Below, in pieces: positions 13,058-53,720 of a DNA stretch of 64,000 nucleotides. The position numbers were made by a program, and so were the translations under genes. The stretch spans positions 1-64,000 of the forward strand of contig JAJEAI010000103.1 in the NCBI GenBank assembly GCA_022824205.1. The letters run 5' to 3'. Source of the stretch: Candidatus Binatia bacterium. Its GTDB lineage: Bacteria > Desulfobacterota > Binatia > UBA9968 > JAJDTQ01. Numbering within the stretch: position 1 is the first letter of the stretch; each line of letters opens with the position of its first letter. The notes below the pieces were generated by a model. The model was not told where the DNA came from, made no database searches, and saw only the letters and a program-made list of their open reading frames with translations.

Positions 13058-13172
13058 GGTCTCTGCCTCGTGAGTCTCGACACGGCCTGGCAGGCGAGAG
13101 TCCGTCTTCCCGCTTCCGCGGGAATGACGGATCACACCCTCTGGCCACTTCCGCCAGCTTGGGGAGAATCCC

Positions 13173-14683
13173 ATGTCCGACCACTACGATGTCATCATCA
13201 TCGGCGGCGGCTCCGGCGGCTGCGTTGCCGCGGCGCAGCTCACCGAAGACCCGCGCCGCAGGGTGTTGCTGTTGGAGGCCGCGCCGGACCCGCGACCGAT
13301 CCCGGAAACCATCCGCCTGGCCAGCGCGCGGGACCGGGTCTGGCTGGAGACCGCTTACGTCGACATGGTCCCCGTGGTGCGGCCCGTCGACGGCAGCCCG
13401 TTCCGCTCCCTGGCGGGAAAGATCATGGGCGGGGGCTCTTCGGTCAACGCCATGGCCTGGGTGTGGCCGACCCGCCATGACATGGACCGGTGGGTGGCGG
13501 CGGGGAATTCCGACTGGTCCTGGGACACGGTCCACGGAGTCCTGAAGCGCATCGAAGCGGACCAGGACTTCCCGGACGACCCGGACCACGGCCACGCCGG
13601 ACCTGTCTACGTCAAGCGTCCCTTCAGCCTGGACTCGGACCTGTCCCCGGTGGTGCGAGCCTGTATCGACGGCGCCGTCGAAATGGGCCTGCCGCGCCTC
13701 CCCGACACCAACGTCCCCGACCCCGTGGGCGTGGGGCCGGGGGTTTCCAACATCAAGGACGGCGTACGCCAGTCCGCGGTGGTGAGCCATCTCGAACCGG
13801 CACGGGAGCGTCCGAACCTCACCGTCAAGGCGGAGGCACCGGTGCTGGGCTGACCCTGTCGGGCAGCCGCGTGGAAGGCGTGCGTTACGAGAAGGACGGC
13901 CGCCTCCACACAGACACCGCGGGCCAAGTGGTTCTGGCCGCGGGCGCGTACCGTACCCCCCAGCTCCTCATGCTGTCGGGTATCGGCCCGGCCGCGGAAC
14001 TGGAACGGATGGGCATCGAGGTGACCCACGGGCTTGAGGGCGTCGGAGGAAATTTCCAGGACCACGCCGTGGTCCACGTGACCTTCGAGGCCGCCATGGA
14101 CTTGGAGGTAGCGTGGACCCTGTCGAGGCTCCGTCTCATGGCACGGACCTCCCCGGGCATGGATCACGGCGACTTCAGCGCTTCGCTGCGGCCGCCCACC
14201 AGGATCGAGGGCGTGGGGACGCTGCTGCCCTTGTCCGTTCAACTGCTCGAGCAAGAAGCGTCGGGACGAATTCGCCTACCGAGCCTGGATGCCAGGGATT
14301 TCCCCGTCGTGGAGACAGGACTGCTGGAAGACCCGAAGGACGTGGAGAGGATGGTGGCGGCCATGGAGTTCCTCCGGGACCTCGCCCGGACGGCGCCGAT
14401 GCGCGAGTTCTACGGCGCGGTGCGCAATCCGGCGCCCCACGAGGACTGGGCGACCTTCGCCCGCTCAACCTACGACAGCTACCACCACGCCTCCGGTACC
14501 TGCAGGATGGGACCGGCGGACGACCCCGCCTCGGTGGTGGACCAGCGCCTGCGCGTCCATGGGCTCGACAACCTGTGGGTGGCCGACGCCTCGATCATGC
14601 CCGAGGTAACCCACGCCAACACCAACGCCACGGTCTACGTGATCGGCGAACGGGTGGCCGAGTTCCTGAGCAGCGCGGGGTAG
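13173..14683 (+). pseudogene. GMC-family FAD oxidoreductase, broken by a one-base deletion
   Basis: The first frame gives SDHYDVIIIGGGSGGCVAAA (FAD-binding) and runs to a TGA at 13851. The rest, from LTLSGSRVEGVRYEKDG to HASGTCRMGP and NLWVADASIMPEVTHANTNA, is in the next frame and ends at 14683. The tandem paralog at 15153 reads GGGCCTGACC where this copy reads GGGCTGACC. One restored C gives 1512 bases, exactly the paralog's length, so a single base is missing at 13850/13851. All catalytic parts are otherwise intact, so this is very recent inactivation or a base-calling error. GMC enzymes oxidise alcohols, choline-like or sugar substrates. Confidence 0.9.
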
Positions 14684-14738: not shown

Positions 14739-14850
14739 ACGATCGTCATTCCCGCGAAAGCGGGAATCCAGGGGTGGAGAGGGGCCAACTGGGCGGCCTC
14801 CCCGCCCACGCGCCGCCTGGATTCCCGCTTTCGCGGGAATGACGATTCGT
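14739..14850. repeat. REP-like long inverted repeat, copy C
   Basis: Arms CGTCATTCCCGCGAAAGCGG and its reverse, ending AATGACGATTCG, surround a G/C-rich centre. It lies in the gap between the two GMC genes. 14851-14999, between this repeat and copy F, is more AT-rich and shows no gene. Confidence 0.92.
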
Positions 14851-15152: not shown

Positions 15153-16664
15153 ATGTCCGATCACTACGACGTCATCATCATCGGCGGCGGCTCCGGCGGC
15201 TGCGTGGCCGCGGCTCGGCTGAGCGAGGACCCGCGCCGCAGGGTGCTGCTGCTGGAGGCCGCCGCGGACCCGCGGCCGGCGCCGGACAACGTGCGGCTGG
15301 CCAGCGGCCGGGACCGGCTCTGGCTCGAGAGTCCCCACATCGACACGTTGGCCGTAGCGCGGCCCATCGACGGAAGCCTGTTCTACCCCATGGCCGGGAA
15401 GATCATGGGCGGAGGCTCGTCCGTCAACGCCATGGGCTGGGTGTGGCCCACGCGCCACGACATGGAGCGTTGGGTGGCGGCCGGCAATCCCGACTGGTCC
15501 TGGGACACGGTCCACGGCGTGCTGAAACGCATCGAAGCGGACCAGGACTTCCCCGACGACCCCGACCACGGCCATGCCGGCCCGGTTTACGTGAAACGCC
15601 CTTTCGGACTGGACTCGGACCTCGCCCCGGTGGTCCGGGCCTATATCGACGGCGCCGCCGAGATGGGCATCCCGCGCCTGCCCGACACCAACCTCCCGGA
15701 TCCCGTGGGCGTGGGCCCCGGGGTCTGCAACATCAAGGACGACGTCCGCCAATCCGCGGTGGTGAGCCACCTCGATCCGGCGCGCGGGCGTCCGAACCTC
15801 ACCATCAAGTCGGAAGCGCTGGTGCTGGGCCTGACCCTGTCGGGCAGCCGCGTGGACGGCGTGCGTTACGAGAAGGACGGCCACGTCCACGTGGACACCG
15901 CCGGCCAAGTGGTGTTGGCGGCGGGCGCCTACCGCAGCCCGCAGCTCCTGTTGCTGTCGGGCATCGGCCCGGCCGCGGAGCTGGAGGGCCTCGGCATCGA
16001 GGTCGAACACGCGCTGGACGGCGTGGGAAGGAACTTCCAGGACCACGCATCCATCCACATGACGTTCGCGGCTGCCAGGGAATTCGAGGTGGACTGGACC
16101 CTGCCGAGGCTCCGGCTCATGGCCCGGAGCGCCGCCGACCTGGACCACGGCGACTTCAGCGTCACCCTGCGCCCGCCCACGCAAATCCAGGACGTCGGCT
16201 CGCTGCTCCCCATGTCCGCGCAACTGCTGGAGCAGGAAGCACCCGGGCGGGTCCGCCTCAACAGCACCGACCCCAAGGACTATCCGGCCGTCGAGACCGG
16301 ACTGCTGGAGCATCCCGCGGACGTGAAGAAGATGGTCGCCGCCATGGAGTTCATTCGCGACCTCACCCGGACCTCACCCATGCGGGATTTCTACGGCGAG
16401 TTGCGCAACCCCGGGCCGGCGGAGGACTGGGCGACGTGGGCCCGCTCGACCTACGACAGCTATCAACACGCCAGCGGCACCTGCAAGATGGGGCCGGCCA
16501 ACGATCCCGCCGCGGTGGTGGACCAGCGGCTGCGGGTCCACGGCCTGGACAACCTGTGGGTGGCCGACGCCTCGGTCATGCCCGAGGTGGTGCGCGCCAA
16601 CACCAACTCCACGGTGTATGTGATCGGGGAACGGCTGGCGGAGTTCTTGGGGAGCGCGGCGTAG
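15153..16664 (+). CDS. GMC-family FAD-dependent oxidoreductase (intact tandem copy)
   Basis: 503 residues from ATG 15153, preceded by AAGGAGG. The N-terminal Rossmann motif IIIGGGSGGCVAAARL binds FAD and LLLEAAADPR follows. GKIMGGGSSVNAMGWVWPTR is GMC signature 1, and AAGAYRSPQLLLLSGIGPA (about residues 255-275) is signature 2. The C-terminal YDSYQHASGTCKMGP holds the first active-site His near residue 438, and VVRANTNSTVYVIGERLAEF the second region (Asn). It is the parent or twin of the broken copy upstream. Oxidation of a primary alcohol to an aldehyde, with O2 or another acceptor, is the family reaction; the substrate is unknown. Confidence 0.95.
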   Translation: MSDHYDVIIIGGGSGGCVAAARLSEDPRRRVLLLEAAADPRPAPDNVRLASGRDRLWLESPHIDTLAVARPIDGSLFYPMAGKIMGGGSSVNAMGWVWPTRHDMERWVAAGNPDWSWDTVHGVLKRIEADQDFPDDPDHGHAGPVYVKRPFGLDSDLAPVVRAYIDGAAEMGIPRLPDTNLPDPVGVGPGVCNIKDDVRQSAVVSHLDPARGRPNLTIKSEALVLGLTLSGSRVDGVRYEKDGHVHVDTAGQVVLAAGAYRSPQLLLLSGIGPAAELEGLGIEVEHALDGVGRNFQDHASIHMTFAAAREFEVDWTLPRLRLMARSAADLDHGDFSVTLRPPTQIQDVGSLLPMSAQLLEQEAPGRVRLNSTDPKDYPAVETGLLEHPADVKKMVAAMEFIRDLTRTSPMRDFYGELRNPGPAEDWATWARSTYDSYQHASGTCKMGPANDPAAVVDQRLRVHGLDNLWVADASVMPEVVRANTNSTVYVIGERLAEFLGSAA

Positions 16665-29891: not shown

Positions 29892-31421
29892 ATGCGAACT
29901 CGATTCCGCGCCACTTTCGCGGCCTTGGTCTTCGCGGGCCTCGCCCTGACCCTTGCCGCCAACTCGGCATCGGCTCAGAACAAGACCCGGATCACCGTCG
30001 GCGTCACCGAGACCATGGAGACGTTCAACCCGTACGGAGACAGCGTGGCCCTGCTTTACGGCGTCTACACGGAGATGACCGGTCCCCTGTGCAAGTACAA
30101 CTGGAAGGACGCCAGGTGGGAGCCGCGGCTGGCCAAGAGCTGGACGGTGGAAGACCCGAACAACTGGCTGTTCGAAATCGACCAGCGCTACACGTTCAAT
30201 GACGGCAGCCCGGTGACCGCCGACGACATCGTGCACTCCCTCACGCGCATCCTCACCGATCCCCAGAGCAAGCAGAAGGCCGCGGTGACTCGCCCCATCA
30301 AGGAGGCCGCGGTGGTGGACAAGTTCAAGGTCCGCATCACCACCAAGAAGCCCACCGCTCCGCTGCTGGACTTCCTCTGCGACAACCTGATCATCACCAG
30401 CAAGGCGGCCTTCGACAAGTACGGCGCCAGGGAAGCCGACCGCAAGCACATGATGGGCGGCGGTCCCTACGCGTTCGCGGAGTTGGTGCCGGGACAGCGC
30501 ATGGTCATCAAGAAGCGCCCGGACCATCCGGACATGGCGAGAAACCCCAACGCGCCGGACGAGATCGTGTTCCGGGTCATGCGTGAACCCGAGCAGCGTG
30601 TGGCGGCGCTGATGAACAACGAGGTGCAGATCGCCCAGTTCATACCGCCGCACCTGTTCAATCCCGTGAACGATTCACCCAACCACAAGATTGCCAAGGC
30701 GGACTCCATCGAGATCATGTTCCTGGCCATGCAGCCCAAGCCGCCGTTCGACAAGAAGGAAGTGCGCCAGGCGGTGTGCTACGCCATCGACCGGGACAAG
30801 ATCATCAACACCCTGCTGCAGGGTCAGGCGCGGCGCCTCGACGGGCCCCTGGGTCCGGGGCAGTTGGGCTACAACCCGAACCTGAAGGCCCGCTACACCT
30901 ACGATCCCAAGAAGGCGCGCGAACTGCTGGCCGCGGCCGGCTATCCCGACGGTGTGGCCGTGGAGTTGCAGACGCCGGTCAACCGCTACGTGCTGGACAA
31001 GCAGGTGACCGAGGCCATGATCCCGATGCTCAACGCCGCGGGCTTCAAGGCCAGGCTGCTGACGCCGGAGTGGCCGACGCTATGGGCCAACGTGCAGAAG
31101 GGCAAGGTGCCGTTCTTCTACATGGGCCGCGGCGGGGTGCTGGACCCGAGCTCGGCGTTCCACCAGTACTTCAGGACGGGCGGGTCGCCGCGCATCGGCT
31201 TCTACCGTCCCGAAATCGACGCGGCCCTCGACGCGGAGCAGGCGGAGTTCGATCCCGAGAAGCGCAATCAACATCTGACCACGGCGATGGAGCTGATCAC
31301 GGATCTGGCGCCGGCCTGCTTCCAGTGGCGGCACCAGCTCCTGTGGGGCATGACCAAGGACATCGAGTATGAGCCCCCGGCCGACGCCCGCATCTACGGC
31401 ATGGACATGGTGGTGAAGTAA
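29892..31421 (+). CDS. ABC transporter substrate-binding protein, family 5 (oligopeptide/dipeptide type), copy 1
   Basis: 509 residues from ATG 29892 (AAAGGAGA upstream). A Sec signal peptide ends SASA-QNKTR at about 29. The mature protein follows SBP_bac_5: TMETFNPYGDSVALLYGVYT, LAKSWTVEDPNNWLFEI, VKVRI-like ligand helices, and VYA-type C-terminal lobes (YDPKKARELLAAAGYPDGV; GRGGVLDPSSAFHQYF). Such proteins bind peptides, opines, nickel or glutathione. It lacks any permease or ATPase nearby. A near-identical gene follows, after a terminator. Confidence 0.95.
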   Translation: MRTRFRATFAALVFAGLALTLAANSASAQNKTRITVGVTETMETFNPYGDSVALLYGVYTEMTGPLCKYNWKDARWEPRLAKSWTVEDPNNWLFEIDQRYTFNDGSPVTADDIVHSLTRILTDPQSKQKAAVTRPIKEAAVVDKFKVRITTKKPTAPLLDFLCDNLIITSKAAFDKYGAREADRKHMMGGGPYAFAELVPGQRMVIKKRPDHPDMARNPNAPDEIVFRVMREPEQRVAALMNNEVQIAQFIPPHLFNPVNDSPNHKIAKADSIEIMFLAMQPKPPFDKKEVRQAVCYAIDRDKIINTLLQGQARRLDGPLGPGQLGYNPNLKARYTYDPKKARELLAAAGYPDGVAVELQTPVNRYVLDKQVTEAMIPMLNAAGFKARLLTPEWPTLWANVQKGKVPFFYMGRGGVLDPSSAFHQYFRTGGSPRIGFYRPEIDAALDAEQAEFDPEKRNQHLTTAMELITDLAPACFQWRHQLLWGMTKDIEYEPPADARIYGMDMVVK

Positions 31422-31439
31422 CATCTTGTCCGGCGCACG

Positions 31440-31480
31440 GCGGGCATGCCTCCCGAACGGAGGCATGCCCGCTTCCTTTC
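31440..31480 (+). terminator. Rho-independent terminator of binding protein copy 1
   Basis: GCGGGCATGCCTCC (31440-31453), loop CGAAC, then the perfect complement GGAGGCATGCCCGC (31459-31472) and TTCCTTTC. It lies 18 bases past the stop codon. Confidence 0.85.
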
Positions 31481-31498
31481 CGAGTCCGTCCGCTTGAG

Positions 31499-31527
31499 TT
31501 GACAACTCCCAACCACGTTGATAGAAG
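31499..31527 (+). promoter_or_regulatory. Putative promoter of binding protein copy 2
   Basis: TTGACA (31499-31504), 17 bases, TAGAAG (31522-31527), directly after the terminator of copy 1. It mirrors 29781-29810. Confidence 0.45.
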
Positions 31528-31593
31528 CGCCAGAATCACGCAACCGTGTCGTCATGTTGCAAGGGAAGGTACAACCAGAGGAGAATAAACGAT

Positions 31594-33123
31594 ATGCGGA
31601 ACCACATGCGAACCACACTCGTGGCACTGGCCGTGGCCGGGCTCGCCCTATGCTTGGCCGCCAACACGGCGTTGGCACAGAACAAGACCCGCGTCAGCAT
31701 CGGCGTCACCGAGACCATGGAGACGCACAACCCGTACGGCGACAGCGTGGCCCTGCTCTACGGCATCTATACCGAGATGACCGGACCGTTGTGCAAGTAC
31801 AACTGGAAGGACGGCAAGTGGGAGCCGCGGCTGGCCAAGAGTTGGACCGTCGAGGACCCCAACAACTGGCTCTTCGAGATCGACCAGCGCTACAAGTTCA
31901 ACGACGGCAGTCCGGTGACCGCCGAGGACATCGTGCACTCCCTCTGGCGCGTACTCAACGACCCTCAGAGCAAGCAGAAGGCTTCGGTGGCGCGCCCGGT
32001 GAAGGAAGCCACGGTCGTCGACAAGTTCAAGGTCCGCATCACCACCAAGAAGCCCACCGCGCCGCTGCTGGACTTCCTCTGTGACGGTTTGATCATCACC
32101 AGCAAGGCGACCTACGACAAGGTCGGCGCCAAGGAAGCGGACCGCAAGCACCTGATGGGCGGTGGCCCGTATGGGTTGGCGGAACTGGTGCAGGGACAGC
32201 GCATGGTCATCAAGAAACGGCCCGATCACCCGGCCATGGTGCGCAACCCCAGCGCCCCGGACGAGATCGTGTTCCGGGTCATGCGCGAGCCCGAACAGCG
32301 GGTGGCGGCCCTGATGAACAACGAGGTTCAGATCGCCCAGTTCATCCCGCCGCATCTCTACAAGCCCGTGGACAGTTCCCCCAACCACAAGATCGTCCCC
32401 ACGGACTCCATCGAGATCATGTTCCTGGCCATGCAGCCCAAGCCACCCTTCGACAAAAAGGAAGCTCGGCAGGCGGTGTGCTACGCCATCGACCGGGACA
32501 AGATCATCAAGACCTTGCTGCAGGGACAGGCACGCCGCCTCGACGGTCCCCTGGGACCCGGACAGTTGGGATACAACGCGGACCTGAAGACCCGCTACAC
32601 CTACGACCCCAAGAAATCGCGCGAACTGCTGGCCAAGGCTGGCTATCCCGACGGCGTGGCCGTGGAGTTGCAGACGCCGGTGGGCCGCTACGTCCTGGAC
32701 AAGCAAGTGACCGAGGCGATGATCCCGATGCTGAACGAAGCGGGCTTCAAGGCCAAGCTGCTCACACCGGAGTGGCCGACGCTCTGGGCCAACGTACAGA
32801 AGGGCCGAGTGCCGTTCTTCTACATGGGCCGGGGCGGCGTGCTCGACCCGAGTTCGGCGTTCCACCAGTACTTCCGCAAGGGCGGCTCGCCGCGCATCGG
32901 CTTCTCGCACCCGGACATCGACGCGGCCCTCGACGCGGAGCAGGCCGAGTTCGACCCGGAGAAGCGCAATCAGCACCTCACCCGCGCCATGGAACTGATC
33001 ACCGACATGGCGCCGGCCTGCTTCCAGTGGCGCCACCAGCTCCTGTGGGGCATGGCGAACAACATCGAGTATCAGCCTCCGGCTGACGCCCGCATCTACG
33101 GCATGGACATCGTAGTCAAGTAG
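31594..33123 (+). CDS. ABC transporter substrate-binding protein, family 5, tandem copy 2
   Basis: 509 residues from ATG 31594 (AGAGGAGAA upstream); signal peptide ending TALA-QNKTR. It aligns without gaps to copy 1 over the whole length, with changes such as ETFNPYG to ETHNPYG, TRILTDPQ to WRVLNDPQ, and NNPNLK to NADLK. Most differences are on the lobe surfaces, so the copies may bind related but not identical ligands. It has its own promoter and terminator like its twin, pointing to duplication of the whole unit. No membrane component is present. Confidence 0.95.
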   Translation: MRNHMRTTLVALAVAGLALCLAANTALAQNKTRVSIGVTETMETHNPYGDSVALLYGIYTEMTGPLCKYNWKDGKWEPRLAKSWTVEDPNNWLFEIDQRYKFNDGSPVTAEDIVHSLWRVLNDPQSKQKASVARPVKEATVVDKFKVRITTKKPTAPLLDFLCDGLIITSKATYDKVGAKEADRKHLMGGGPYGLAELVQGQRMVIKKRPDHPAMVRNPSAPDEIVFRVMREPEQRVAALMNNEVQIAQFIPPHLYKPVDSSPNHKIVPTDSIEIMFLAMQPKPPFDKKEARQAVCYAIDRDKIIKTLLQGQARRLDGPLGPGQLGYNADLKTRYTYDPKKSRELLAKAGYPDGVAVELQTPVGRYVLDKQVTEAMIPMLNEAGFKAKLLTPEWPTLWANVQKGRVPFFYMGRGGVLDPSSAFHQYFRKGGSPRIGFSHPDIDAALDAEQAEFDPEKRNQHLTRAMELITDMAPACFQWRHQLLWGMANNIEYQPPADARIYGMDIVVK

Positions 33124-33258: not shown

Positions 33259-34161
33259 ATGAAACCCCGATTCCGCGGCATCTTCATCCCTACCCTGACC
33301 ACTTTCGACGACGATGGCGAGGTGGACTTCGACGTTCTCGCCGAGATGCTGGAGTTCCACATCGCCGCCGGCGTGCACGGCCTCTTCGTGCTCGGCTCCA
33401 CCGGCATGGGCCCGGCCATGACCACGGAGCAGCGCGTGGCCACGGCGGAGTTCGTCATGGAGCGGGTCAGGGGACGCGTCCCGGTGGTCATGCACGCGGG
33501 CACCGCCGACGTGCAGACCACCTGCCGGCTCGCCCGGCACGCCCAGGGACTGGGGGTGGACGCGGTGGCCGTGGTGCCGCCGTACTACTATACCGACCAC
33601 ACCCCGTGGGAAATCACGGCGCACTTCAAGACCGTGGCGGACGCGGTGAACGGCACGCCGCTGTTCCTCTACGACAACGTGAAGTACTCCGGCTGGGCCT
33701 TCACTCCGGCCACCGCCAAGGCCTTGCAGAGCGAAGTGCCGGCGCTCTGCGGCATGAAGGCGAGCTACTACGCCCAGGGACCCCTGCTCGGTTACCTCGA
33801 AGCCATGCCCGGGGACTTCGCCGTCATGTCGGGAAACAGCATCGACCTCATGCCGGCGACGCCCCACGGACTCAGCGGCGCCATCCCGCCCTTGACCAGC
33901 GCGATCCCCGAGATCTGCGTGGCCCTGTGGAACGCCCTGGAGCGCCGTGATTACGAGGCGGCGGTGCCGCTGCAGAAAAAGGCCGACGACTTCGGGCGCG
34001 CCATCGGCCGTCTGGGCCAACGCTTCGGCCGCAGCGCGCATCGGGAAGCCATGCGCGCCCGCGGTTTCAAGATCGAGCGCTACCCGCGCTGGCCGTCGGA
34101 GGAGCTGACCGAGGAAGCGATGCAGACCGTCGCGGACGCCTTGAGGGCCACCGGCGTCTGA
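33259..34161 (+). CDS. DapA-family aldolase (dihydrodipicolinate synthase/N-acetylneuraminate lyase type)
   Basis: 300 residues from ATG 33259 (GGGAGG upstream). TIM-barrel class I lyase with GSTGMGPAM (46-54) in place of GTTGE, VVPPYYYTDHT around residue 106, the Tyr in FLYDN (138), and the Schiff-base Lys at 167 in ALCGMKASY. The GSTG form belongs to the broad DapA-like group that cleaves or makes 2-oxo acids and not only lysine precursors. Last of the plus-strand run; the opposite cluster starts 47 bases on. It may cleave a keto-acid product of that cluster. Confidence 0.9.
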   Translation: MKPRFRGIFIPTLTTFDDDGEVDFDVLAEMLEFHIAAGVHGLFVLGSTGMGPAMTTEQRVATAEFVMERVRGRVPVVMHAGTADVQTTCRLARHAQGLGVDAVAVVPPYYYTDHTPWEITAHFKTVADAVNGTPLFLYDNVKYSGWAFTPATAKALQSEVPALCGMKASYYAQGPLLGYLEAMPGDFAVMSGNSIDLMPATPHGLSGAIPPLTSAIPEICVALWNALERRDYEAAVPLQKKADDFGRAIGRLGQRFGRSAHREAMRARGFKIERYPRWPSEELTEEAMQTVADALRATGV

Positions 34162-34208: not shown

Positions 34209-34640
34209 TCAGGCCTTCTTCTGCGCGGAGGCGGGGGCGGGCGGCTCGAGGTCCCAGCCCTGGGCGGAGATGTCCATGATCACGCCGTTGGGGCCGCGCA
34301 CCTTCTCCTCGAAGTAGAAGCTGTGGTGGGAGCCGACGGCGTCGCCGAGGATCTCGGCACCGGTGCCGTCGAGCTTCGCGTTGGCCTCCTGAACGTCGTC
34401 CACCTGGAACCCCATGTGGTGGAGTCCCTCGTAGGCGGCGCCGCCGACCATGTCCGCGGCCTCGTCGGAGGGGTAGTTCAGGAACGCGAAGTTGACGTGC
34501 CCGTCCGAGAGGAACACGCCACCGCCGCGCGGCGAGTCGGGCACCTTCTTGATGAACTTGAGCCCGAACACCTTCTGGTAGAAGGCCGCGGTCTTGTCCG
34601 GATCCTTGGTGGCGATGGCGATATGCCTCAAGCGTGCCAT
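34209..34640 (-). CDS. Single-domain VOC protein (glyoxalase-like), last gene of the HDO cluster
   Basis: 143 residues. ARLRHIAIATKDPDKTAAFY, VNFAFLNYPSD, EGLHHMGFQVDDVQEANAKL and GPNGVIMDISAQGWD make a single VOC module. Likely metal ligands are H6 and a His of LHH; the third position carries Asp. The tail ends in lysine/alanine. It belongs to the minus-strand set with HDO oxidases; a related VOC gene begins that set's second position (38907). Such proteins often isomerise or cleave the product of an oxygenase. Confidence 0.9.
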   Translation of the reverse strand: MARLRHIAIATKDPDKTAAFYQKVFGLKFIKKVPDSPRGGGVFLSDGHVNFAFLNYPSDEAADMVGGAAYEGLHHMGFQVDDVQEANAKLDGTGAEILGDAVGSHHSFYFEEKVRGPNGVIMDISAQGWDLEPPAPASAQKKA

Positions 34641-34691
34641 GGGGACTCCCTTCTTCTCTTTCGTGTCTGTTCCCGGCGAACGCGGACGCCG

Positions 34692-35402
34692 TCAATCGGC
34701 CGTTTGCATGGCCCGGCCGACGCCGCCGAGAAACACCTGCCAGAACTCCAGCGACTGCCGCGCCGCGTCCAGAATGCCCTCCCACTGGACTTCCGTCGTG
34801 GCGTAGTTGGCCAGCAGGTCCATGGTCTGGCCCTTGTGGTCGGTATCGGCCTCGCGGTGCAGCCTGAAGTTGGGCAACTGCTCCTCGCTCAGCCCGAGGT
34901 CCGTCATCCAGCGCTCCTGGGCGCGCGTCTGGTGCGCGCCGCCCGGAATGATCGGGTCCAGGTTGACGCGCTCCAGCACCGCCACGCCGCCGAGCCCCTC
35001 CAGCCATCCCAGGTTGAAGGCCAGCCAGCTCCAGCCGGCGATGGCTGCCCGGGTGGTGGGCAGCGGTTGCGCGTGGTGCACCTCGTCCGCGGTGAGGCCC
35101 ACGGCCTCGCCGTGCCGCACCCACAGGGTGTAGTGGTCGGAACCGCAACGCGGATCGAAGAGCATCTCCTCGGTCTCGTGCTCCAGCAGTTCCTTCTTGA
35201 CCTCCATGTGCGGACAGCGCGCGATGAGGTAGGCCCAGGCCGACCGCCGCCCGCGCACGAACAGGCCGAACTGCTGCGCGATGATCCGCGCCCGGCGCGG
35301 GGTCAGCCGCACCCCGTAGAACTCCTGGACCTCGGGAGCGGCAAACGCCTCCCGGGTCAACTGGTTCAGCATCTCGTCGTACCGTGTTGCCGTCGCATCC
35401 AT
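34692..35402 (-). CDS. HDO-type iron oxidase (TenA/heme-oxygenase-like fold), paralog A
   Basis: 236 residues, all helical, of the heme-oxygenase-like di-iron (HDO) superfamily that includes CADD, UndA and BesC. A full six-ligand set is visible: E79 and H90 (ETEEMLFDPRCGSDH), E135 (LGWLEGL), and H182, D186 and H189 in NFRLHREADTDH. The H-x3-D-x2-H end is the same as in paralogs B and C. It probably activates O2 for an oxidative bond cleavage or desaturation. Starts 23 bases after the stop of paralog B, hence co-transcribed. PqqC/TenA without metal would lack these ligands. Confidence 0.82.
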   Translation of the reverse strand: MDATATRYDEMLNQLTREAFAAPEVQEFYGVRLTPRRARIIAQQFGLFVRGRRSAWAYLIARCPHMEVKKELLEHETEEMLFDPRCGSDHYTLWVRHGEAVGLTADEVHHAQPLPTTRAAIAGWSWLAFNLGWLEGLGGVAVLERVNLDPIIPGGAHQTRAQERWMTDLGLSEEQLPNFRLHREADTDHKGQTMDLLANYATTEVQWEGILDAARQSLEFWQVFLGGVGRAMQTAD

Positions 35403-35425
35403 CCCGCCGCTCCTTTTGGACGACT

Positions 35426-36148
35426 CTACCGTCCCGCGTCCGCCGGTATGCGCTCCATGGCCTCCAGCACGCCGGCGCGATAGATGGTCATGAGCTCCAT
35501 GGACTCCTTGACGGCGCGCAGCGCCTCTTCCTGCAACGGCCCGGTGGCGTGCTGCTCGAGGTCGGGCAGGAACATGTCGCTGTGCTCCTCATCCGCCTGG
35601 GAGTGCACGTCGAAGTTGGGCATCTCCTTCATCTTGAACCCCATGTCCTCGCTCCAGCGCCGGCCCATGCGCGTGGAATGGCCGCCGCCGTGGTCTCCCA
35701 GCAGGCGGTCGTCGTTGGCCCACTCGGTCACCGTGAGCGCCGCCAGCCCCTCCAGCCAGGGTTTCTCGCGGGTGATCCAGCCCCAGGCGTAGAGCACCGC
35801 GCGGGTGGTGGGAAGCGGGTCGGCGTTCAGGATGTCCTCGGGCTCGAGGCCCACCAGCCTGCCCTGGTTCACGATCAGGGTGATGTGGCCGTGCTCGCTG
35901 AACTCGTCCTTGATCACCTCGCCGTACTCGTGCTGCAGTATCTTCTGCTTGACCGACCAGACCGGGCAGTTGCCGGACACGTGCGCCCAGCAATCCCGGC
36001 GGTGGCGTATGAAGTGGGCCAGCTCCCGCACGATCACCTGGGCGCGCAACGGCGTCTGCTTGAGGTCGAAGTAGCGGGTCACAACGTCGGAAGCCGAATG
36101 CTCCCGCACGATGTCGCCGATGGCCTTGCGCCACTCATGAACTTGCAT
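35426..36148 (-). CDS. HDO-type iron oxidase, paralog B
   Basis: 240 residues from ATG 36148 (GGGAGGG upstream). Same fold as paralog A: E77 and H88 (YGEVIKDEFSEHGH), E133 (PWLEGLAAL), and H182, D186 and H189 in NFDVHSQADEEHSD. It aligns with paralog A along its length, including DPLPTTRA and EMPNF/QLPNF. It is set between gamma-glutamyltransferase and paralog A on one strand. The three copies are too different for a recent duplication and probably act on different steps or substrates. Confidence 0.82.
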   Translation of the reverse strand: MQVHEWRKAIGDIVREHSASDVVTRYFDLKQTPLRAQVIVRELAHFIRHRRDCWAHVSGNCPVWSVKQKILQHEYGEVIKDEFSEHGHITLIVNQGRLVGLEPEDILNADPLPTTRAVLYAWGWITREKPWLEGLAALTVTEWANDDRLLGDHGGGHSTRMGRRWSEDMGFKMKEMPNFDVHSQADEEHSDMFLPDLEQHATGPLQEEALRAVKESMELMTIYRAGVLEAMERIPADAGR

Positions 36149-36222
36149 GGTCGGTCCCTCCCGGTCTGGTGTAGCGTCCCGCGAGCCGTCTCGCGCCGCG
36201 CGGGACCACGAAACGTTCCAAT

Positions 36223-37788
36223 TCAATAGCCGATGGCGCAGCCGTCCTTGCGCGGGTCCGACCCGCCCATGAGAACCCCGGTGTCCGGCTCGATGGCGAT
36301 GGCGTGGGCGCCGCCGAAGCTTTCGGGCGCCCCGGAGACCACTTCGTGGCCGCGCGCTTCCAGGGCGCTGGCGGTGCCGCCGGCGACGCCCGGTTCCAGC
36401 GCCACTTCCACGCCGGACAGGTGGTTGAACCGCGGCGCGTCCAGCGCCTCCTGCGCGCTCATGCCGAAGTCCACCACGTTGCTGATGATCTGACTCTGCA
36501 CCTGGGCCTGGACGTGGCCGCCCTTGAGCCCCACCACAAGCACCGGACGCCCGTCCCGGCACACCATGCCCGGCATGAGCGTGTGGCTGCAACGCTTGTG
36601 CGGGCCGAGGCAGTTGGGATGCCCTTCCTCGAGACAGAACATGTGGCCGCGGTTCTGCAGCACGATGCCGGTGTCCTCCACCGCCACGCCCGAGCCGAAG
36701 CCCATGAACAGGCTCTGGATGAAGGACACCCGGTTGCCCCGGCCGTCGGCCACGGCCACGTACTCGGTGTCCCCCGCCACCGGCGCCGCGTCCACGCGCG
36801 CCGCCGCCCTGTCCATGGAGATGCCGCGCCGGAGCGCGGCGATGCGCGGTTCGGCCGCCAAGTCGCGCCAGTTTACGGTCATGCTGTCGCGGTCGCCGAG
36901 ATAAAGCTCGCGGTCGGCAAAGGCACGCTTCTTGGCTTCGATGAAGAGATGGAGATGGTCGGCGCCGTTGTGCTCCATCGAGCCCAGGTCGTAGCCCTCC
37001 AGAATCCCGAGCATCTCCAGCGCCACGAACCCCTGCGTGGCCGGCGGCAACTGGTACACCTCGTGGCCGCGGTAGCACGCGCGGATGGGCTCCACCCACT
37101 CCGAGGCATGCCCTTCCATGTCCCGCATTTCGAAGACGCCGCCGAGCTTGCGCGAGCAGCGCACCAGCTTCTCCGCCACCTCGCCGCGGTAGAAGTACTC
37201 CGTGCCTCCGTCCGCGATGCCGCGCAGGGTCCGGGCGAGGTCCGGTTGCCGGAAAATCTCTCCGGGCCTTGGCGCGCGTCCGTCCAACAGGTAGCCCGCC
37301 GCGGCTGCCTCGTTCTTCCGCAGCTTACCCTCCAGGCCGCGCCACTCCTCGCTGGTGAAGCCGCTCACCGGGAACCCTTCCTCGGCGTAGCGGATGGCGG
37401 GCTCCAGCAGCGCCGCCAGGGTGCGGGTACCGTGGGCTTCCAGAAGCGTCTGCCACCCATGCACCGCGCCGGGCACCGTTACCGAGTGGATCCCGGTCTG
37501 CGGCACCGCATCCAGGCCCTCCTTCCGGAAGGCCTCGGCATCGGCCGCGCAGGGCGAGCGGCCACTGGCGTCCAGCGCCTTCATCTCGCCGGTCTCGGCG
37601 ACGTAGAGAAGCGCGAAGGCATCGCCGCCGATGCCAATGGACATGGGCTCCAGCACCCCGAGCATGGCCGCGGTGGCCACCGCCGCGTCCACGGCGTTGC
37701 CGCCCCCCGCCAGCACCTGGACGCCCACCAGCGACGCCAGCCGCTGGCTGCAGGCCACCATGCCGTTCCTGCCCATGACCGTGCCCAT
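36223..37788 (-). CDS. ggt: Gamma-glutamyltransferase family protein, without leader
   Basis: 521 residues from ATG 37788 (GGAG upstream). It has the two-subunit Ntn-hydrolase plan: AGGNAVDAAVATAAMLGVLEP near the start, the autoprocessing Thr near residue 341 in AGDTEYVAVADGRGN, and the late GHVQAQVQSQIISNVVDFGM and PRF-x-H segment. No signal peptide is evident, so it is likely cytoplasmic, unlike periplasmic GGT. Such enzymes remove gamma-glutamyl groups, for example from gamma-glutamylated amines in amine catabolism or from glutathione conjugates. Its place among the HDO genes suggests it unmasks their substrate or product. Confidence 0.9.
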   Translation of the reverse strand: MGTVMGRNGMVACSQRLASLVGVQVLAGGGNAVDAAVATAAMLGVLEPMSIGIGGDAFALLYVAETGEMKALDASGRSPCAADAEAFRKEGLDAVPQTGIHSVTVPGAVHGWQTLLEAHGTRTLAALLEPAIRYAEEGFPVSGFTSEEWRGLEGKLRKNEAAAAGYLLDGRAPRPGEIFRQPDLARTLRGIADGGTEYFYRGEVAEKLVRCSRKLGGVFEMRDMEGHASEWVEPIRACYRGHEVYQLPPATQGFVALEMLGILEGYDLGSMEHNGADHLHLFIEAKKRAFADRELYLGDRDSMTVNWRDLAAEPRIAALRRGISMDRAAARVDAAPVAGDTEYVAVADGRGNRVSFIQSLFMGFGSGVAVEDTGIVLQNRGHMFCLEEGHPNCLGPHKRCSHTLMPGMVCRDGRPVLVVGLKGGHVQAQVQSQIISNVVDFGMSAQEALDAPRFNHLSGVEVALEPGVAGGTASALEARGHEVVSGAPESFGGAHAIAIEPDTGVLMGGSDPRKDGCAIGY

Positions 37789-37861
37789 GCGTTCTCCGTC
37801 TAGACAGCTTCCTTCGAAAGGCCGTGCCAAGACTCTGCTCAAACACTACGTGGCACCGCCA

Positions 37862-37976
37862 CCCGAATCGTCATTCCCGCGAAAGCGGGAATCCAGGAGG
37901 GGTGAGGCGGGGAAAGACGCCGCTTTGCTCCCGCTCCACCCCTGGATTCCCGCTTTCGCGGGAATGACGATTCGGG
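37862..37976. repeat. REP-like long inverted repeat, copy D
   Basis: CCCGAATCGTCATTCCCGCG at the left and CGCGGGAATGACGATTCGGG at the right are perfect complements. The side block TCTTGACACACCCTGTTCCG follows at about 37995-38015, as with copy A. It sits in the 343-base gap between the glutamyltransferase and paralog C of the HDO group; the remaining gap 37977-38131 shows nothing else. Confidence 0.92.
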
Positions 37977-38131
37977 GCTTTGGTGCCTCGCGTGTCTTGA
38001 CACACCCTGTTCCGCGGAAAGGACGTCTCGAAGGACACCGTTCTGCTTACTCCGACAGACTCCTGTCGCAGCATGAATACCTTGGGGCCGGTGCAATTCC
38101 TTCCGCCGAATCTTGCCTGCCGCCCGCCGGT

Positions 38132-38830
38132 TTACGCCGCCTGGGTCTCCTCCACCTCCACCATGGCCGAGCCCAGCGCCCCGCGGTACGCCCGGTCCAG
38201 GGCGAGGCAGTCCCGCGCCGCGCGGATGATCAGGGCGCCGGTGTCCGCGTCGCGCACGTATTTCTCGAACACCGGGTCGAACATGTCCGAATGGCCGATG
38301 TCCGCGGTCATGTGGAGCTGGGTGTTGGCGTCGAGCTTCTCCACGGAACCCACGATCTCGCGGGCCTTCTTCATGGCCATGCGGTGGGTGAAGCCGCCGC
38401 CCTTGACGATCTCGTTGTTGTTCTTGCGCTCGGTGGTGTGGTTGACCATCAGGGACTCGATCCACGAACGCGTGGAGCACAGGTGGAACCACGCCCAGAA
38501 CGCCGCCCGCGCCCCCGGCAGAAGCTCGCCCTCGTCCGCGGCCACGGCCATCTCTTCGTCCGTGAGGTGCGCCGATCCCAGCCGTTCGTCGAAAATCAGC
38601 TCATCCTTCTCGTGCTCCCAGATGGCCCGCTTCACGTCCAGCGGCGCCTTGCCCGCCGCCACCGCCCAGCAGTCGCGCCGGCTCTTGATGTAGTGGGGGT
38701 AGTGGAGATCCAGGATGGCCTGGCGCGCCGGGGTGAGGCGCACCCCGAAGATCCGCCGGTATTCGGCGCTCTCGAAATGCCGGTTCACCATCTCGTCGAC
38801 GACCGTGCGGGCCTTCGTCCACTCGCTCAT
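38132..38830 (-). CDS. HDO-type iron oxidase, paralog C
   Basis: 232 residues from ATG 38830. E77 and H88 (KDELIFDERLGSAH), E125 (RSWIESL), and H173, D177 and H180 (QLHMTADIGHSD) give the complete ligand set, in the same spacing as in A and B. The middle (KNNNEIVKGGGFTHRMAMKK) is divergent and lacks the PLPTTRA element. It precedes gamma-glutamyltransferase and follows a small VOC gene. The three HDO copies within 5 kb are the most distinctive point of this region. Confidence 0.82.
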   Translation of the reverse strand: MSEWTKARTVVDEMVNRHFESAEYRRIFGVRLTPARQAILDLHYPHYIKSRRDCWAVAAGKAPLDVKRAIWEHEKDELIFDERLGSAHLTDEEMAVAADEGELLPGARAAFWAWFHLCSTRSWIESLMVNHTTERKNNNEIVKGGGFTHRMAMKKAREIVGSVEKLDANTQLHMTADIGHSDMFDPVFEKYVRDADTGALIIRAARDCLALDRAYRGALGSAMVEVEETQAA

Positions 38831-38906
38831 GGGTCACCTCCGTTCCGGGGCATTCCCGCCAAACGGCCGGACCGTGCCGGGAGGGCGGGCTTCGAAGACG
38901 ATGCGC

Positions 38907-39245
38907 TCAGACGGGCCAGCCGTGCTCGGACACGTCCACGCGGTTGTCCTCGGGATCGGTGATCCAGCTCTCCGCGATGGCGCCGTAGGTGTTGGCGTTG
39001 GCCGTGGCCTGCGTGGAGTCCTCCACGGCCTTGACGCTGTCCACCACGAACCCGAAGTGGTGGATGCCGTAGGGCAGGTTCGGACTGCTGATCAGCGCCA
39101 CGTCGACGAAGCCGTCGGAGAGGTAGATGGTGCCGTTGGGTCCCCGGGACTTCTCCTCCAGGCCGAAGTGCTCCTTGTAGTATTCCGCCACCTTGTCGCG
39201 GTCGTGGGTGTTGATGGCGATGTGCCGTATCCTGGGCCGTGCCAT
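38907..39245 (-). CDS. Single-domain VOC protein, second in the HDO cluster
   Basis: 112 residues from ATG 39245. PRIRHIAINTHDRDKVAEYY, GTIYLSDGFVDVALIS, YGIHHFGFVVDSVKAVED and DNRVDVSEHGWPV make one VOC module, with H8 and a HHF His as possible metal ligands. It resembles the VOC gene at 34209 in order and the final GW motif (SAQGWD and SEHGWP). It lies 26 bases past the stop of the Bug receptor, in the same direction. Confidence 0.9.
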   Translation of the reverse strand: MARPRIRHIAINTHDRDKVAEYYKEHFGLEEKSRGPNGTIYLSDGFVDVALISSPNLPYGIHHFGFVVDSVKAVEDSTQATANANTYGAIAESWITDPEDNRVDVSEHGWPV

Positions 39246-39271
39246 GGGTATCCTCCTTCCTGAGGGCAAGT

Positions 39272-40294
39272 TCAGTTTCCGATGATGTTCCTGAGCTTGG
39301 CCTTGACCGCGGGCGAGGCGGCCAGCACCTGCTTCACCTGGGCCGCGACGGCGTCCGCCGGTACGTGATCGATGGTCATCCGGGTCTTCTTGGCCAGCGC
39401 CAGAAACTCGGGGTCCTCCAGCGTGGCCTGGAAAGCCTTGCGCAGAACCTCCACGGCTTCGGCGGGGGCCTTCGGCGGAGCGGCGAACGGGCGGAAGAAA
39501 CGGTACTGGGCCATCCACGCGTTGAACGCCTCCAGGTCCTCCGCGCCCTTGATGAAGTCGGTGTACTTGGGCAGCCCCTTCACCTGGGGGTCATTGGAAT
39601 CGCCCTGCAGGAGCACCGGGATCAACCGGTCGTCGCCCTTGGCGTTCAGCATGTCGCGCGCCGTGATCTTCATGGACACCCACTGCCAGCAGGCGCCGTC
39701 CACCTCGCGCCGGGTCATGGCCGCGCGAATGCCCGCCGTGCCCTGGTAGCCGGGCACCATCTTCACGTTGGCGCCGATCAACTGCTTGAGGATCCGGGGC
39801 TGCTCCCGGGTGCTGCTGCCCGCCGCCCCCATGGTCAGCGTCTTCTTGGACTTCACCACGTCGTCGAGGGTCTTGACGCCGCTGAAGCCCATGAACGCGC
39901 ACACCGGCATGCCCACGCTCGGCGCCCCGATCCACTGGAACTTGTCGGCGTCGAACTTGATCCCCTCCGTGCCCATGGTCTGCTCCATGACCAGGCCGCT
40001 GATGAGCATGGCGAAGGTCAGACCGTCCGGCTTGGCGACGTTGTACAGGTAGTTGGCGGCGATGAGACTGCCCGCCCCGGGCATGTTCTGCACGATGACG
40101 TTGGGCTTGCCCGGCAGGTGCTTGGGCATGTGGCGCGCGATGGCGCGCGCGTAGGTGTCGTACCCGCCGCCCGGCGACGTGCCGACGATGAGCCGCAGCG
40201 TCTTGCCGGTGTAGTCCGGCGCCGCATGGGCCGTGGCGAGCCAGCACAATGAGGCGGCGACTACGAGACAAGCAAGTGTCCTGATTCTGCGCAT
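39272..40294 (-). CDS. Bug-family (TTT) periplasmic receptor
   Basis: 340 residues, with a Sec signal peptide ending TAHA-APDYTGK at about 25. KTLRLIVGTSPGGGYDTYAR, NVIVQNMPGAGSLIAANYLY, and the TLTMGAAGSSTREQPRI loop are typical of the ligand pocket. Upstream and first in the minus-strand HDO cluster, so its ligand is a good clue to the pathway substrate (carboxylate). No TctA/TctB partner is seen; the receptor may share a membrane unit encoded elsewhere. Confidence 0.92.
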   Translation of the reverse strand: MRRIRTLACLVVAASLCWLATAHAAPDYTGKTLRLIVGTSPGGGYDTYARAIARHMPKHLPGKPNVIVQNMPGAGSLIAANYLYNVAKPDGLTFAMLISGLVMEQTMGTEGIKFDADKFQWIGAPSVGMPVCAFMGFSGVKTLDDVVKSKKTLTMGAAGSSTREQPRILKQLIGANVKMVPGYQGTAGIRAAMTRREVDGACWQWVSMKITARDMLNAKGDDRLIPVLLQGDSNDPQVKGLPKYTDFIKGAEDLEAFNAWMAQYRFFRPFAAPPKAPAEAVEVLRKAFQATLEDPEFLALAKKTRMTIDHVPADAVAAQVKQVLAASPAVKAKLRNIIGN

Positions 40295-52040: not shown

Positions 52041-53720
52041 TCAGTCCTCGTCTTCGCCGTAGTACGACGTGTTCGGCGGGATGTCCTTGGTGGAGCGGCG
52101 CTGGCGCGCGATCTTGGCGCCGGTCTTCCAGTACTCGCCGCGGGTGGCGAGGGCGGCCTCCTGCTCCAGCTCCTCGTTCCAGTCGCCGAGGGAGTAGCCG
52201 AACCACGGCGACTGGGGCTCCAGCTCCGGCAACCCCAGCTCCTCCCAGAGCTTCCGGCCCCGCTCCATGTACTCACGGGTGGGGAGGGAGATGGGCGGGA
52301 GCTTCTCCTTGAGAGTCGCGTCCCACAGCAGGCACGAGTCCTCGGCCGAGCCGCGCGCGTCGTGCCGCGGGGCGTGGCCCACGTCCATGCCGTGCATGAT
52401 CTGCACGTCCCGGTGCGGCTTGGAGCGATAGCCCATGGCCCAGAACACCGCGTCGAGGTTGTCGGGATCGATGTCCTCGTCCACCGCGATGACGATCTTG
52501 GACATGGACGGGCGGAACGCCACCGCGCCCATGAGCGCGCGCCACACTTCCGCGGGCGTAGGCTGGCGCATCTGGATCACCGTGAGCTTCTGGGTGGCGG
52601 TGAGCGGCTCGTGCAGCATCACGCGCACCACGCTCTTGACGCCGATGCCGTCCCGCAGGTGCTCCAGGTAGATGGGCTCGTAGGCCATCTTCTTGATGAC
52701 GCTCGACTCGGACGGCGTCACCTGGCTGATGATGGAGCACAGGACGGCGTCGCGCCGGCGCGTGATGCAGGTGACCTCCATGAAGGGGTTGTACTCCTTG
52801 GGGTTCACGTGGCCATGGGACTCGCCGAAGGGCGCCTCGGGCTCCAGCCACTCGGTGGAGACGAAGCCCTCGATGACGATCTCCGCGTCCGCCGGCACCA
52901 TCACCGGCACCGTCCGCCCTTCCACCACCCGGATGGGCGCCTTCACCAGGCCCCCCGCCACCGAGAACTCGTCGAGGTCGTAGGCGAGCTTCTGCGCCGC
53001 CACGTAGGAGATGGCCGGCACGCCGCCGATGCACAGCGCCACGGGCATCTTCTCGCCCCGTTCCCGGTACTTCTCCCAGTGCCGGTAGATCCCCTGGCCC
53101 AACTCGATGGAGGGGTTGCAGCCGACCCGGTCGCGCGCCTTGATCATGGCCCGGTAGGTGCCGATGTTGTGCCCGCCGTGATCCGGATCGCGGGAGATGA
53201 AATGGGCCGCGCTCACGTAGGGCGCGTTGTCCCAGCCCGGCGAGGAGATGGGAACCGGAATGCCGTCCACGCCCCTGCCGCGGGTCTTGAGCTGCGCGCC
53301 CGAGTACACCACCTCGTGCACCGGCGCGGCCGACGAAGGGATCTCCACCGGCGCCACCGGATTGGTCTTGGCCTCGGCCCACAGCGCGTTGATGTCCGTG
53401 TCCTCGCCGCACCCGAGCCCGATGCGGTAGATGCGCCGGTTGGCCGCGAGCACGCCGATGGCCACGGGAATGTCATAGCGCTGGCCCTTGGCGTCCACCG
53501 GCTGCTCGAACAGGAACGCCTTGCGGTCGCGCTCCTTGATGCCGCCGCGGAACTGCCAGCGCACCAGCGGATGCATCTCCTGGTCCTTGTCCACCGCCCG
53601 CGCCACCCGGATCAGCAGGCCGGCGTCGTCCAGCCGCTGGAGGTGCTCGTGAAGGTCGGGATAGCCCCGCTCCGGTATTGCCTGCGCCGCGCTCGCGGCC
53701 GTCGGGTTTCTCTTCGCCAT
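52041..53720 (-). CDS. UbiD-family prenyl-FMN-dependent (de)carboxylase
   Basis: 559 residues from ATG 53720 (AGGA upstream). The order GTYRAMIKARDRVGCNPS, then CIGGVPAISYVAAQKLA, EAPFGESHGHVNPKEYNP near residues 293-310, and the AVDEDIDPDNLDAVFWAM metal region fits UbiD. The catalytic triad E-R-E can be placed in EAPFGE and GTYR. It needs prenyl-FMN from a UbiX enzyme, which is not in the window. It probably decarboxylates a hydroxybenzoate/gallate-type or alkenyl acid. First gene of the minus-strand set with enoyl-CoA hydratase and the CoA ligase. It diverges from mfd over 216 bases. Confidence 0.92.
   Translation of the reverse strand: MAKRNPTAASAAQAIPERGYPDLHEHLQRLDDAGLLIRVARAVDKDQEMHPLVRWQFRGGIKERDRKAFLFEQPVDAKGQRYDIPVAIGVLAANRRIYRIGLGCGEDTDINALWAEAKTNPVAPVEIPSSAAPVHEVVYSGAQLKTRGRGVDGIPVPISSPGWDNAPYVSAAHFISRDPDHGGHNIGTYRAMIKARDRVGCNPSIELGQGIYRHWEKYRERGEKMPVALCIGGVPAISYVAAQKLAYDLDEFSVAGGLVKAPIRVVEGRTVPVMVPADAEIVIEGFVSTEWLEPEAPFGESHGHVNPKEYNPFMEVTCITRRRDAVLCSIISQVTPSESSVIKKMAYEPIYLEHLRDGIGVKSVVRVMLHEPLTATQKLTVIQMRQPTPAEVWRALMGAVAFRPSMSKIVIAVDEDIDPDNLDAVFWAMGYRSKPHRDVQIMHGMDVGHAPRHDARGSAEDSCLLWDATLKEKLPPISLPTREYMERGRKLWEELGLPELEPQSPWFGYSLGDWNEELEQEAALATRGEYWKTGAKIARQRRSTKDIPPNTSYYGEDED

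Follow-up and report, generated by a model that had tools for sequence, protein, structure and literature searches.

A 2026 review counts more than 10,000 sequences of heme-oxygenase-like dimetal oxidases (HDOs), of which just about a dozen are functionally validated, and places them in biosynthesis (PMC13108848). Homologs of gamma-glutamyltransferase (GGT) perform other chemistry as well, such as the C-C hydrolysis of LmbA and Ant6. In lincomycin/anthramycin biosynthesis, where this succession is proven, the small VOC extradiol dioxygenase LmbB1 is followed by LmbA2991 or Ant6, GGT homologs with a D|T site, which hydrolyse a C-C bond in the ring-cleaved compound and so release oxalate (PMC5519988, PMC4780272, PMC12311729).

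Here we analyse a locus in which HDO, VOC and GGT-type genes stand together. The window, by which we mean the whole 64,000-nucleotide stretch of DNA that was analysed, comes from a Candidatus Binatia MAG; the Binatia are an uncultured lineage from sponges and soil. In the literature searched we found no pathway with this gene set, as the original prediction had held, and no catabolic HDO cluster; a catabolic oxygenase role for HDOs appears to be undescribed.

Results

The gene set

Seven minus-strand genes had been predicted at 34209-40294 (a Bug receptor, two VOC proteins, three HDOs and a GGT), with a DapA-type gene opposite. All are present as placed, and their families are assigned by Pfam and NCBIfam profiles. 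The features are as follows.

39272-40294, minus strand: Bug/TctC-type solute receptor, first gene of the set, genus-level (PF03401, E=1.2e-9; same-place orthologs in the genus 85-97% identical)
38907-39245, minus strand: VOC-A, single-domain VOC protein of 112 aa (PF00903; weak matches to TIGR03211 catechol_2_3 and PDB 5zsz)
38132-38830, minus strand: HDO-A, predicted heme-oxygenase-like dimetal oxidase (alignment, ligands, model)
37869-37969, no strand: palindromic dispersed repeat with CGTCATTCCCGCGAAAGCGGGAATCC arms, inside the HDO-A/GGT gap (arm matches in the window)
36223-37788, minus strand: GGT-homologous Ntn hydrolase (PF01019, E=2e-148)
35426-36148, minus strand: HDO-B (PF14518; ligands; model)
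34692-35402, minus strand: HDO-C, B-side paralog restricted to the genus (PF14518, E=5e-18; alignment; tree)
34209-34640, minus strand: VOC-C, single-domain VOC, methylmalonyl-CoA-epimerase/glyoxalase-like (PF00903, E=5e-15; PDB 3rmu)
33259-34161, plus strand: divergent DapA/NAL-superfamily lyase adjoining the set (PF00701; NCBIfam equivalogs all below cut-off)

From Bug to VOC-C, the intergenic gaps measure 26, 76, 343, 74, 23 and 51 nt. The widest, between HDO-A and GGT, contains the palindromic repeat, of which further copies lie elsewhere in the window (8 matches to the arms, against 0 expected). Since the same gap spans just ~20-46 nt in several relatives (L011, L013, L056), a single transcript for the seven genes is plausible. 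A promoter scan gave no signal exceeding chance.

HDO paralogs carry a complete ligand set

The canonical 3H/3C ligand positions are E77, H88, E134, H173, D177 and H180 in HDO-A; E77, H88, E142, H182, D186 and H189 in HDO-B; and E79, H90, E144, H182, D186 and H189 in HDO-C. In an alignment of 63 diverse homologs these positions are 100% invariant, and they align with the equivalent residues of CADD-type proteins. Five of the six ligands originally proposed for each paralog are thereby confirmed. The sixth, a glutamate placed at E125-135, was misassigned: the residue at A125/B133/C135 is 92% conserved across the 63 sequences but is Ala in CADD-type enzymes, and the true third-Glu position lies nine residues further on, at A134/B142/C144.

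HDO-A falls below Pfam detection, yet it aligns with HDO-B and HDO-C and has the HDO fold and all ligands. Its AlphaFold2 model (pLDDT 92) has CADD 1rcw as best PDB match (E=2.8e-4, prob 1.00), and the HDO-B model (AlphaFold2, pLDDT 93) has FeII/MnII CtCADD (E=3.3e-7, TM 0.73/0.81). The top Foldseek matches of both models are CADD, PqqC, BesC and PolF, at prob 1.00; UndA is matched too, and TenA is also among the structural matches. The structure prediction originally called for thus yields HDO folds for HDO-A and HDO-B, with the modelled ligands at the CADD positions; HDO-C is placed by sequence. These data support the assignment of all three paralogs, at the level of sequence, as HDO-type enzymes. 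By alignment with CADD, the ligands would meet in one dimetal site, probably diiron.

A search of plasmids with HDO-B gave no match, and a phylum-wide search with HDO-A at a strict cut-off found it in 1 of 297 genomes, namely its own.

The VOC proteins and the GGT homolog

Residues H9, H64 and D105 of VOC-A (P0004 numbering) are invariant in 14 orthologs, of which 12 also have E108; as we read the motif, the usual Glu ligand position seems to be taken by the invariant Asp105. The matches of VOC-A are weak overall (E 1e-3 to 1e-5): the top profile is catechol 2,3-dioxygenase TIGR03211 (E 6e-5, well under the curated cut-off), and the top structure is PDB 5zsz, an extradiol catechol dioxygenase (E 0.002). 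Close orthologs of VOC-C were seen in the window's genus only.

The GGT matches PF01019 over its full length, scores above cut-off for PF01019 and TIGR00066, and has no evident signal peptide. Its processing and nucleophile site is D339|T340, both residues being invariant in 12 orthologs. Such a D|T site is reported for LmbA-like proteins (PMC5519988); here it is weak evidence for an LmbA/Ant6-type enzyme, since GGT paralogs of 40% identity in the order likewise carry DT. The closest PDB match, at 411 bits against 255 bits for E. coli GGT, is 2nlz, a B. halodurans protein named cephalosporin acylase and the nearest solved relative.

In the alignment, the counterparts of all five E. coli residues that hold the gamma-glutamyl group (R114, N411, D433, S462 and S463) are replaced. 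R114 becomes S74 and S462/S463 become H401/T402, and these three residues are invariant in the 12 orthologs. The same Ser and His-Thr substitutions occur in GtGGT and PtGGT, which are regarded as GGTs, PtGGT being a hydrolase (PMC8062742). Since the pattern is that of a known GGT clade, the enzyme may hydrolyse gamma-glutamyl compounds.

Conservation across genera

The entire 27-46 kb region is syntenic within the genus. We therefore discounted within-genus synteny as support, and the conservation argument uses cross-genus data only. Across genera of one order, the core of HDO-A/HDO-B and VOC-A, often with GGT, is maintained at ~60-70% identity. In all 17 genomes, from 8 genera, the VOC-A ortholog adjoins an HDO gene (rough chance product 3e-18), and GGT shares the HDO/VOC-A cluster in at least 11 genomes. 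Co-conservation is thus far above chance. Between genera the gene order shifts and most flanking genes differ, whereas module membership stays, so that selection on the gene set is likelier than passive synteny.

In two of the order's families GGT is adjacent to HDO-A, and elsewhere it is partnered with Amidohydro_2 or UbiD; it is missing from the cluster in L012/G009, and in G018, G027 and G032 it lies on a separate contig from HDO-A. Bug, HDO-C, VOC-C and DapA are found at this locus in the window's genus only, as additions to the order-wide core. The Bug ortholog is truncated in L012; DapA is kept within the genus, and paralogs of it lie near other HDO modules (L027, L047). The original expectation that the neighbours would be conserved in related genomes is therefore borne out across genera for HDO-A, HDO-B, VOC-A and, in part, GGT, and within the genus for these four genes.

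Neighbours of sister modules

Elsewhere in the order, paralogs of the HDO-A/B type adjoin UbiD decarboxylases, cupins resembling gentisate/5-aminosalicylate dioxygenases, and Amidohydro_2 pairs. For example, the window's genus has a sister module (L061) that reads UbiD-Bug-HDO-HDO-gentisate-dioxygenase-like cupin-cupin. Solute receptors lie inside or next to most modules, and many have NMT1/THI5-like receptors. Some of these neighbours may be due to chance, since the lineage is rich in Bug/NMT1, UbiD, VOC and Amidohydro_2 genes.

The window's own cluster is without UbiD, cupin and Amidohydro_2 genes. Two candidate members were considered and rejected: the UbiD gene at 52041-53720, which shares just 48% identity with the UbiD that accompanies a related module and belongs to a set of five similar copies within this genome, and the Amidohydro_2 partner of another family's modules, whose best match here lies on contig C31 with no HDO gene adjoining.

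Discussion

We propose, as the best of the readings considered and at a probability of roughly 45%, that the module serves the O2-dependent catabolism of an aromatic or N-heteroaromatic acid; we infer the catabolic direction, the aromatic substrate, the succession of steps and what each enzyme catalyses. A carboxylate would be captured by the Bug-type receptor, and its ring or side chain oxygenated by the HDO enzymes by means of O2 and their dimetal (probably diiron) site. VOC-A would act on the HDO product, its simplest role being that of an extradiol ring-cleaving dioxygenase. Through Thr340, the GGT homolog would then cleave an acyl bond, either amide or C-C, in the compound left by ring opening. 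VOC-C, the DapA-type lyase or both might finish the carbon skeleton.

Several observations favour this reading: the UbiD, cupin and Amidohydro_2 genes beside HDO paralogs in the order, the receptors in or near most modules, the catechol extradiol dioxygenases as best profile and structure matches of VOC-A, the precedent of LmbB1 followed by LmbA/Ant6, the clustering of HDO with VOC-A (and often GGT) across genera, the persistence of this membership where gene order and flanks differ, and the complete 3H/3C set in every HDO paralog. Against it count the weakness of the VOC-A matches together with the apparent Asp as third ligand, the position of the UbiD, cupin and Amidohydro_2 genes outside the window's cluster, and the biosynthetic or protective roles of characterised HDOs. 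A fuller version, in which the place of the usual flavin, heme or Rieske hydroxylases on an aromatic acid is taken by HDO dimetal enzymes, the single-domain VOC opens the ring and the GGT homolog hydrolyses the product, would make the module a catabolic counterpart of LmbB2-LmbB1-LmbA with the first catabolic HDOs; we regard this version as doubtful.

The variable position of GGT bears on a looser arrangement, in which the HDOs and VOC-A share one function while the neighbouring GGT, Bug and DapA genes of the catabolic island act independently. The genomes in which GGT is absent or on another contig favour it, as does the restriction of Bug, DapA, HDO-C and VOC-C at this locus to the genus; but GGT adjoins HDO-A in two families and otherwise keeps its Amidohydro_2 or UbiD partners, and we find such an arrangement somewhat unlikely. 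It is also unlikely that the genes form a small biosynthetic pathway whose HDOs modify a metabolite derived from an amino acid, while the VOC and the GGT homolog play the parts known from lincomycin/pyrrolobenzodiazepine precursor synthesis. Characterised HDOs do mostly produce natural products or cofactors (PMC13108848), and VOC plus GGT homolog is an established biosynthetic pair; however, the genes called in the core modules include no recognised NRPS, PKS, methyltransferase or F420 reductase, most modules have import receptors, and the sister modules neighbour decarboxylases and ring-cleavage-type dioxygenases.

The original scheme, in which an amine or carboxylate is taken up, processed as a gamma-glutamyl derivative and set free by GGT once the HDO and VOC steps are over, now seems improbable. 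The enzyme keeps its Thr nucleophile and its PF01019/TIGR00066 scores, and GtGGT and PtGGT count as GGTs with the same substitutions (PMC8062742), yet the E. coli-type gamma-glutamyl-holding residues are replaced and the closest solved relative bears the name of a cephalosporin acylase. No gamma-glutamylamide synthetase was noticed in the general gene list of the modules' called genes. Thiamine or pyrimidine salvage, with TenA-like HDO-fold proteins and pyrimidine-binding NMT1-like receptors, would account for the fold shared with TenA and for the NMT1/THI5-like receptors of many modules. We rejected it as highly improbable on the strength of the metal-ligand set, invariant in 63 of 63 sequences; moreover, the best structural matches are CADD, and we noticed no thiamine genes among those of the modules.

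If the aromatic-acid reading is true, a conserved multi-paralog HDO set, linked to genes for transport, decarboxylation and ring-cleavage-type enzymes, opens a catabolic branch of the HDO family, aromatic acids become a defined candidate substrate class for deorphaning HDOs, and GGT homologs are linked with ring-cleavage products beyond antibiotic clusters. It also suggests a role for Binatia in aromatic carbon, of which the phylum's main genomic survey makes no mention under the terms searched (PMC8262859).

Comparison with known systems

With the HDO superfamily (CADD, BesC, UndA, PolF, AetD) the module's HDOs share the seven-helix heme-oxygenase fold and the E...H...E...HxxxDxxH 3H/3C motif, and CADD is the best match for both models. 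They differ in being ~11-20% identical to any solved member, in having three paralogs within a single cluster, and in standing among decarboxylase, dioxygenase and receptor genes, whereas the literature places characterised HDOs in biosynthesis or, in the case of DtpC, stress protection. The LmbB2-LmbB1-LmbA (Ant6) route to the lincomycin/anthramycin precursor has the same succession of oxygenase, small VOC extradiol dioxygenase and GGT homolog with D|T, roles that are predicted here. In that route, which belongs to another phylum, a heme protein rather than an HDO hydroxylates; the module is without a recognised methyltransferase, isomerase or F420 reductase and, unlike the Lmb system, has receptors.

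Gentisate and hydroxyaryl-acid clusters (gentisate 1,2-dioxygenase, UbiD) resemble the sister HDO modules of the order in their related cupin and UbiD genes, whereas in the window's module VOC-A takes the ring-cleavage-type place and there is no flavin or Rieske hydroxylase. Finally, the GGT shares with the 'extremophile' clade (B. halodurans 2NLZ, GtGGT) a Ser at E. coli R114, the His-Thr of GtGGT at Ser462-Ser463 and the lack of an evident signal peptide, but it is embedded among HDO and VOC genes.

Composition of the gene set

The genome in question measures 4.82 Mb, and the window is its contig C42. Each of the seven minus-strand genes of the original prediction, and the DapA-type gene opposite them, was found in its place (families from Pfam/NCBIfam; HDO, heme-oxygenase-like dimetal oxidase):

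39272-40294, minus: Bug receptor (PF03401)
38907-39245, minus: VOC-A (PF00903)
38132-38830, minus: HDO-A (no Pfam detection)
36223-37788, minus: GGT, gamma-glutamyltransferase homolog (PF01019)
35426-36148, minus: HDO-B (PF14518)
34692-35402, minus: HDO-C (PF14518)
34209-34640, minus: VOC-C (PF00903)
33259-34161, plus: DapA-type gene (PF00701)

HDO-A aligns with HDO-B at 31% identity, with every ligand position common to both, and its nearest named records are Candidatus Binatia or 'Deltaproteobacteria' MAGs, which marks the host as Binatia-type. PF14518 matches at 13 places in the window's genome.

HDO-A and GGT are separated by one of the window's four copies of a palindromic dispersed repeat with CGTCATTCCCGCGAAAGCGGGAATCC arms (37869-37969, 14744-14844, 4607-4706 and 12949-13129); in several relatives the HDO-A/GGT gap is ~20-46 nt. 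Two similar tandem SBP_bac_5 peptide-type receptors (29892-33123) both match a single common gene in each relative checked, which suggests a recent duplication. Two adjacent FAD-dependent oxidoreductase genes (13173-14683, 15153-16664) have near-identical starts, and the former, called as two ORFs, looks frameshifted or decayed.

Metal-ligand residues and fold

Aligning 63 diverse proteins of the HDO-A, -B and -C types bears out the predicted full set of six ligands but relocates one of them: the canonical ligands (E77, H88, E134, H173, D177 and H180 of HDO-A) are invariant, and the third Glu ligand lies nine residues after the residue first proposed (A125/B133/C135), which is 92% conserved and corresponds to Ala in both CADD and a 4-aminobenzoate synthase. 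H73, E74 and an RRxxW motif are further invariants marking the group; E74 or D81 might conceivably supply a fourth carboxylate. For the AlphaFold2 models of HDO-A and HDO-B (pLDDT 92 and 93), Foldseek ranks CADD on top in both cases, followed by PqqC, BesC and UndA and, for HDO-A, also PolF.

Conservation across the order

The whole neighbourhood is syntenic within the window's genus, which alone is little evidence; the informative comparison is across the order. HDO-A orthologs (62-69% identity) are present in a second and third family, and VOC-A orthologs in 17 of 35 genomes. In all 17, from eight genera, an HDO gene lies 80-1,096 bases away from VOC-A, with a rough chance product of 3e-18 when one value is taken per genus; genome G032 has one additional, weaker VOC-A match on a different contig. 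In at least 11 genomes the cluster also contains the GGT ortholog (at least 59% identity); elsewhere this gene keeps Amidohydro_2 or UbiD neighbours, and one locus, L012, has the cluster without GGT. The co-occurrence that the original prediction proposed to check is found for HDO, VOC-A and GGT, in a gene order that differs from genus to genus. In the other family HDO-B has undergone at least one duplication, HDO-C forms a clade limited to the window's genus in the tree, and Bug, DapA and VOC-C occupy this place at genus level only. Since a strict search for HDO-A among 297 genomes sampled phylum-wide returned no genome besides its own, the module looks confined to this order.

Neighbouring genes

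Both the modules of other genera and the sister modules of the window's own genus carry UbiD decarboxylases, Amidohydro_2 pairs, NMT1 or Bug receptors and two cupin types, one of which matches models for gentisate 1,2-dioxygenase (E 7e-85) and 5-aminosalicylate dioxygenase (E 1e-93), both under the model cut-offs. A locus in the window's genus (L061; G008:C1, 6464-12738) reads UbiD-Bug-HDO-HDO-gentisate-dioxygenase-like cupin-cupin, a set split over two contig ends (L026, L028) in the window's genome. The Bug/DapA association recurs, because another locus, L027, reads Bug-DapA-HDO-cupin-UbiD-receptor-like-UbiD. From this context, we take the neighbours to point to import and degradation of aromatic acids, and we give aromatic-acid catabolism as the module's role a probability of about 0.45.

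The L061-type sister module is perhaps an easier path to a substrate than the window's. In two genera, HDO-A-like pairs and a cupin have as their neighbour an EutA-type reactivating-protein lookalike, recognised by eye (L046, 5209-6663; L047, 8461-9930). Small TPP-enzyme subunits (split decarboxylase-like) and molybdenum-hydroxylase-like genes occur in the vicinity of HDO or GGT in several of the genera (L038, L040, L041, L050), hinting at N-heteroaromatic substrates.

The GGT homolog and a possible route

The best solved relative of the window GGT is B. halodurans 2NLZ (411 bits, against 255 for E. coli GGT). Its pocket is altered: all five positions corresponding to E. coli R114, N411, D433, S462 and S463 are replaced, invariantly so at R114, S462 and S463 among 12 orthologs, while T340, of the D339\|T340 site, and the Gly-Gly oxyanion pair are retained. 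Ser at R114 and His-Thr at S462-S463 are shared with an intracellular GGT clade termed 'extremophile' (PMC8062742; see also PMC4568574), so gamma-glutamyl hydrolysis may still be within the enzyme's reach, though no observation speaks for a gamma-glutamyl-amine cycle of the kind originally proposed. A second GGT homolog, about 40% identical, has conserved Amidohydro_2 neighbours throughout the order (L062, L063, L064), joined at L064 by a nearby VOC and Bug gene.

The gene content, ligand residues, fold, joint conservation and changed pocket are observed; for the catabolic reading we can sketch a route whose substrates and step order we infer entirely. The receptor would capture the substrate, one or more HDO paralogs, perhaps as heteromers, would oxygenate it, VOC-A would carry out an extradiol-type ring opening, the GGT homolog would hydrolyse an acyl bond (amide or C-C), and VOC-C and the DapA-type enzyme would perform finishing steps. 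This specific HDO-VOC-GGT sequence we consider unlikely to be right as drawn.

Comparison with known systems

Every protein family of the module is already known. The characterised HDOs, about a dozen, are described in biosynthesis (PMC13108848), with DtpC a stress-related exception (PMC13232832), and full-text searches within an open-access library yielded no catabolic HDO cluster. A set of oxygenase, VOC and GGT homolog does have biochemical precedent, because the gamma-GT homologs LmbA2991 and Ant6 hydrolyse a C-C bond in the compound that a VOC-family extradiol dioxygenase produces, using a Thr that becomes exposed at a D\|T site (PMC5519988; PMC12311729). The window GGT has the same site (D339\|T340); the precedent is biosynthetic, unlike the catabolic module proposed here.
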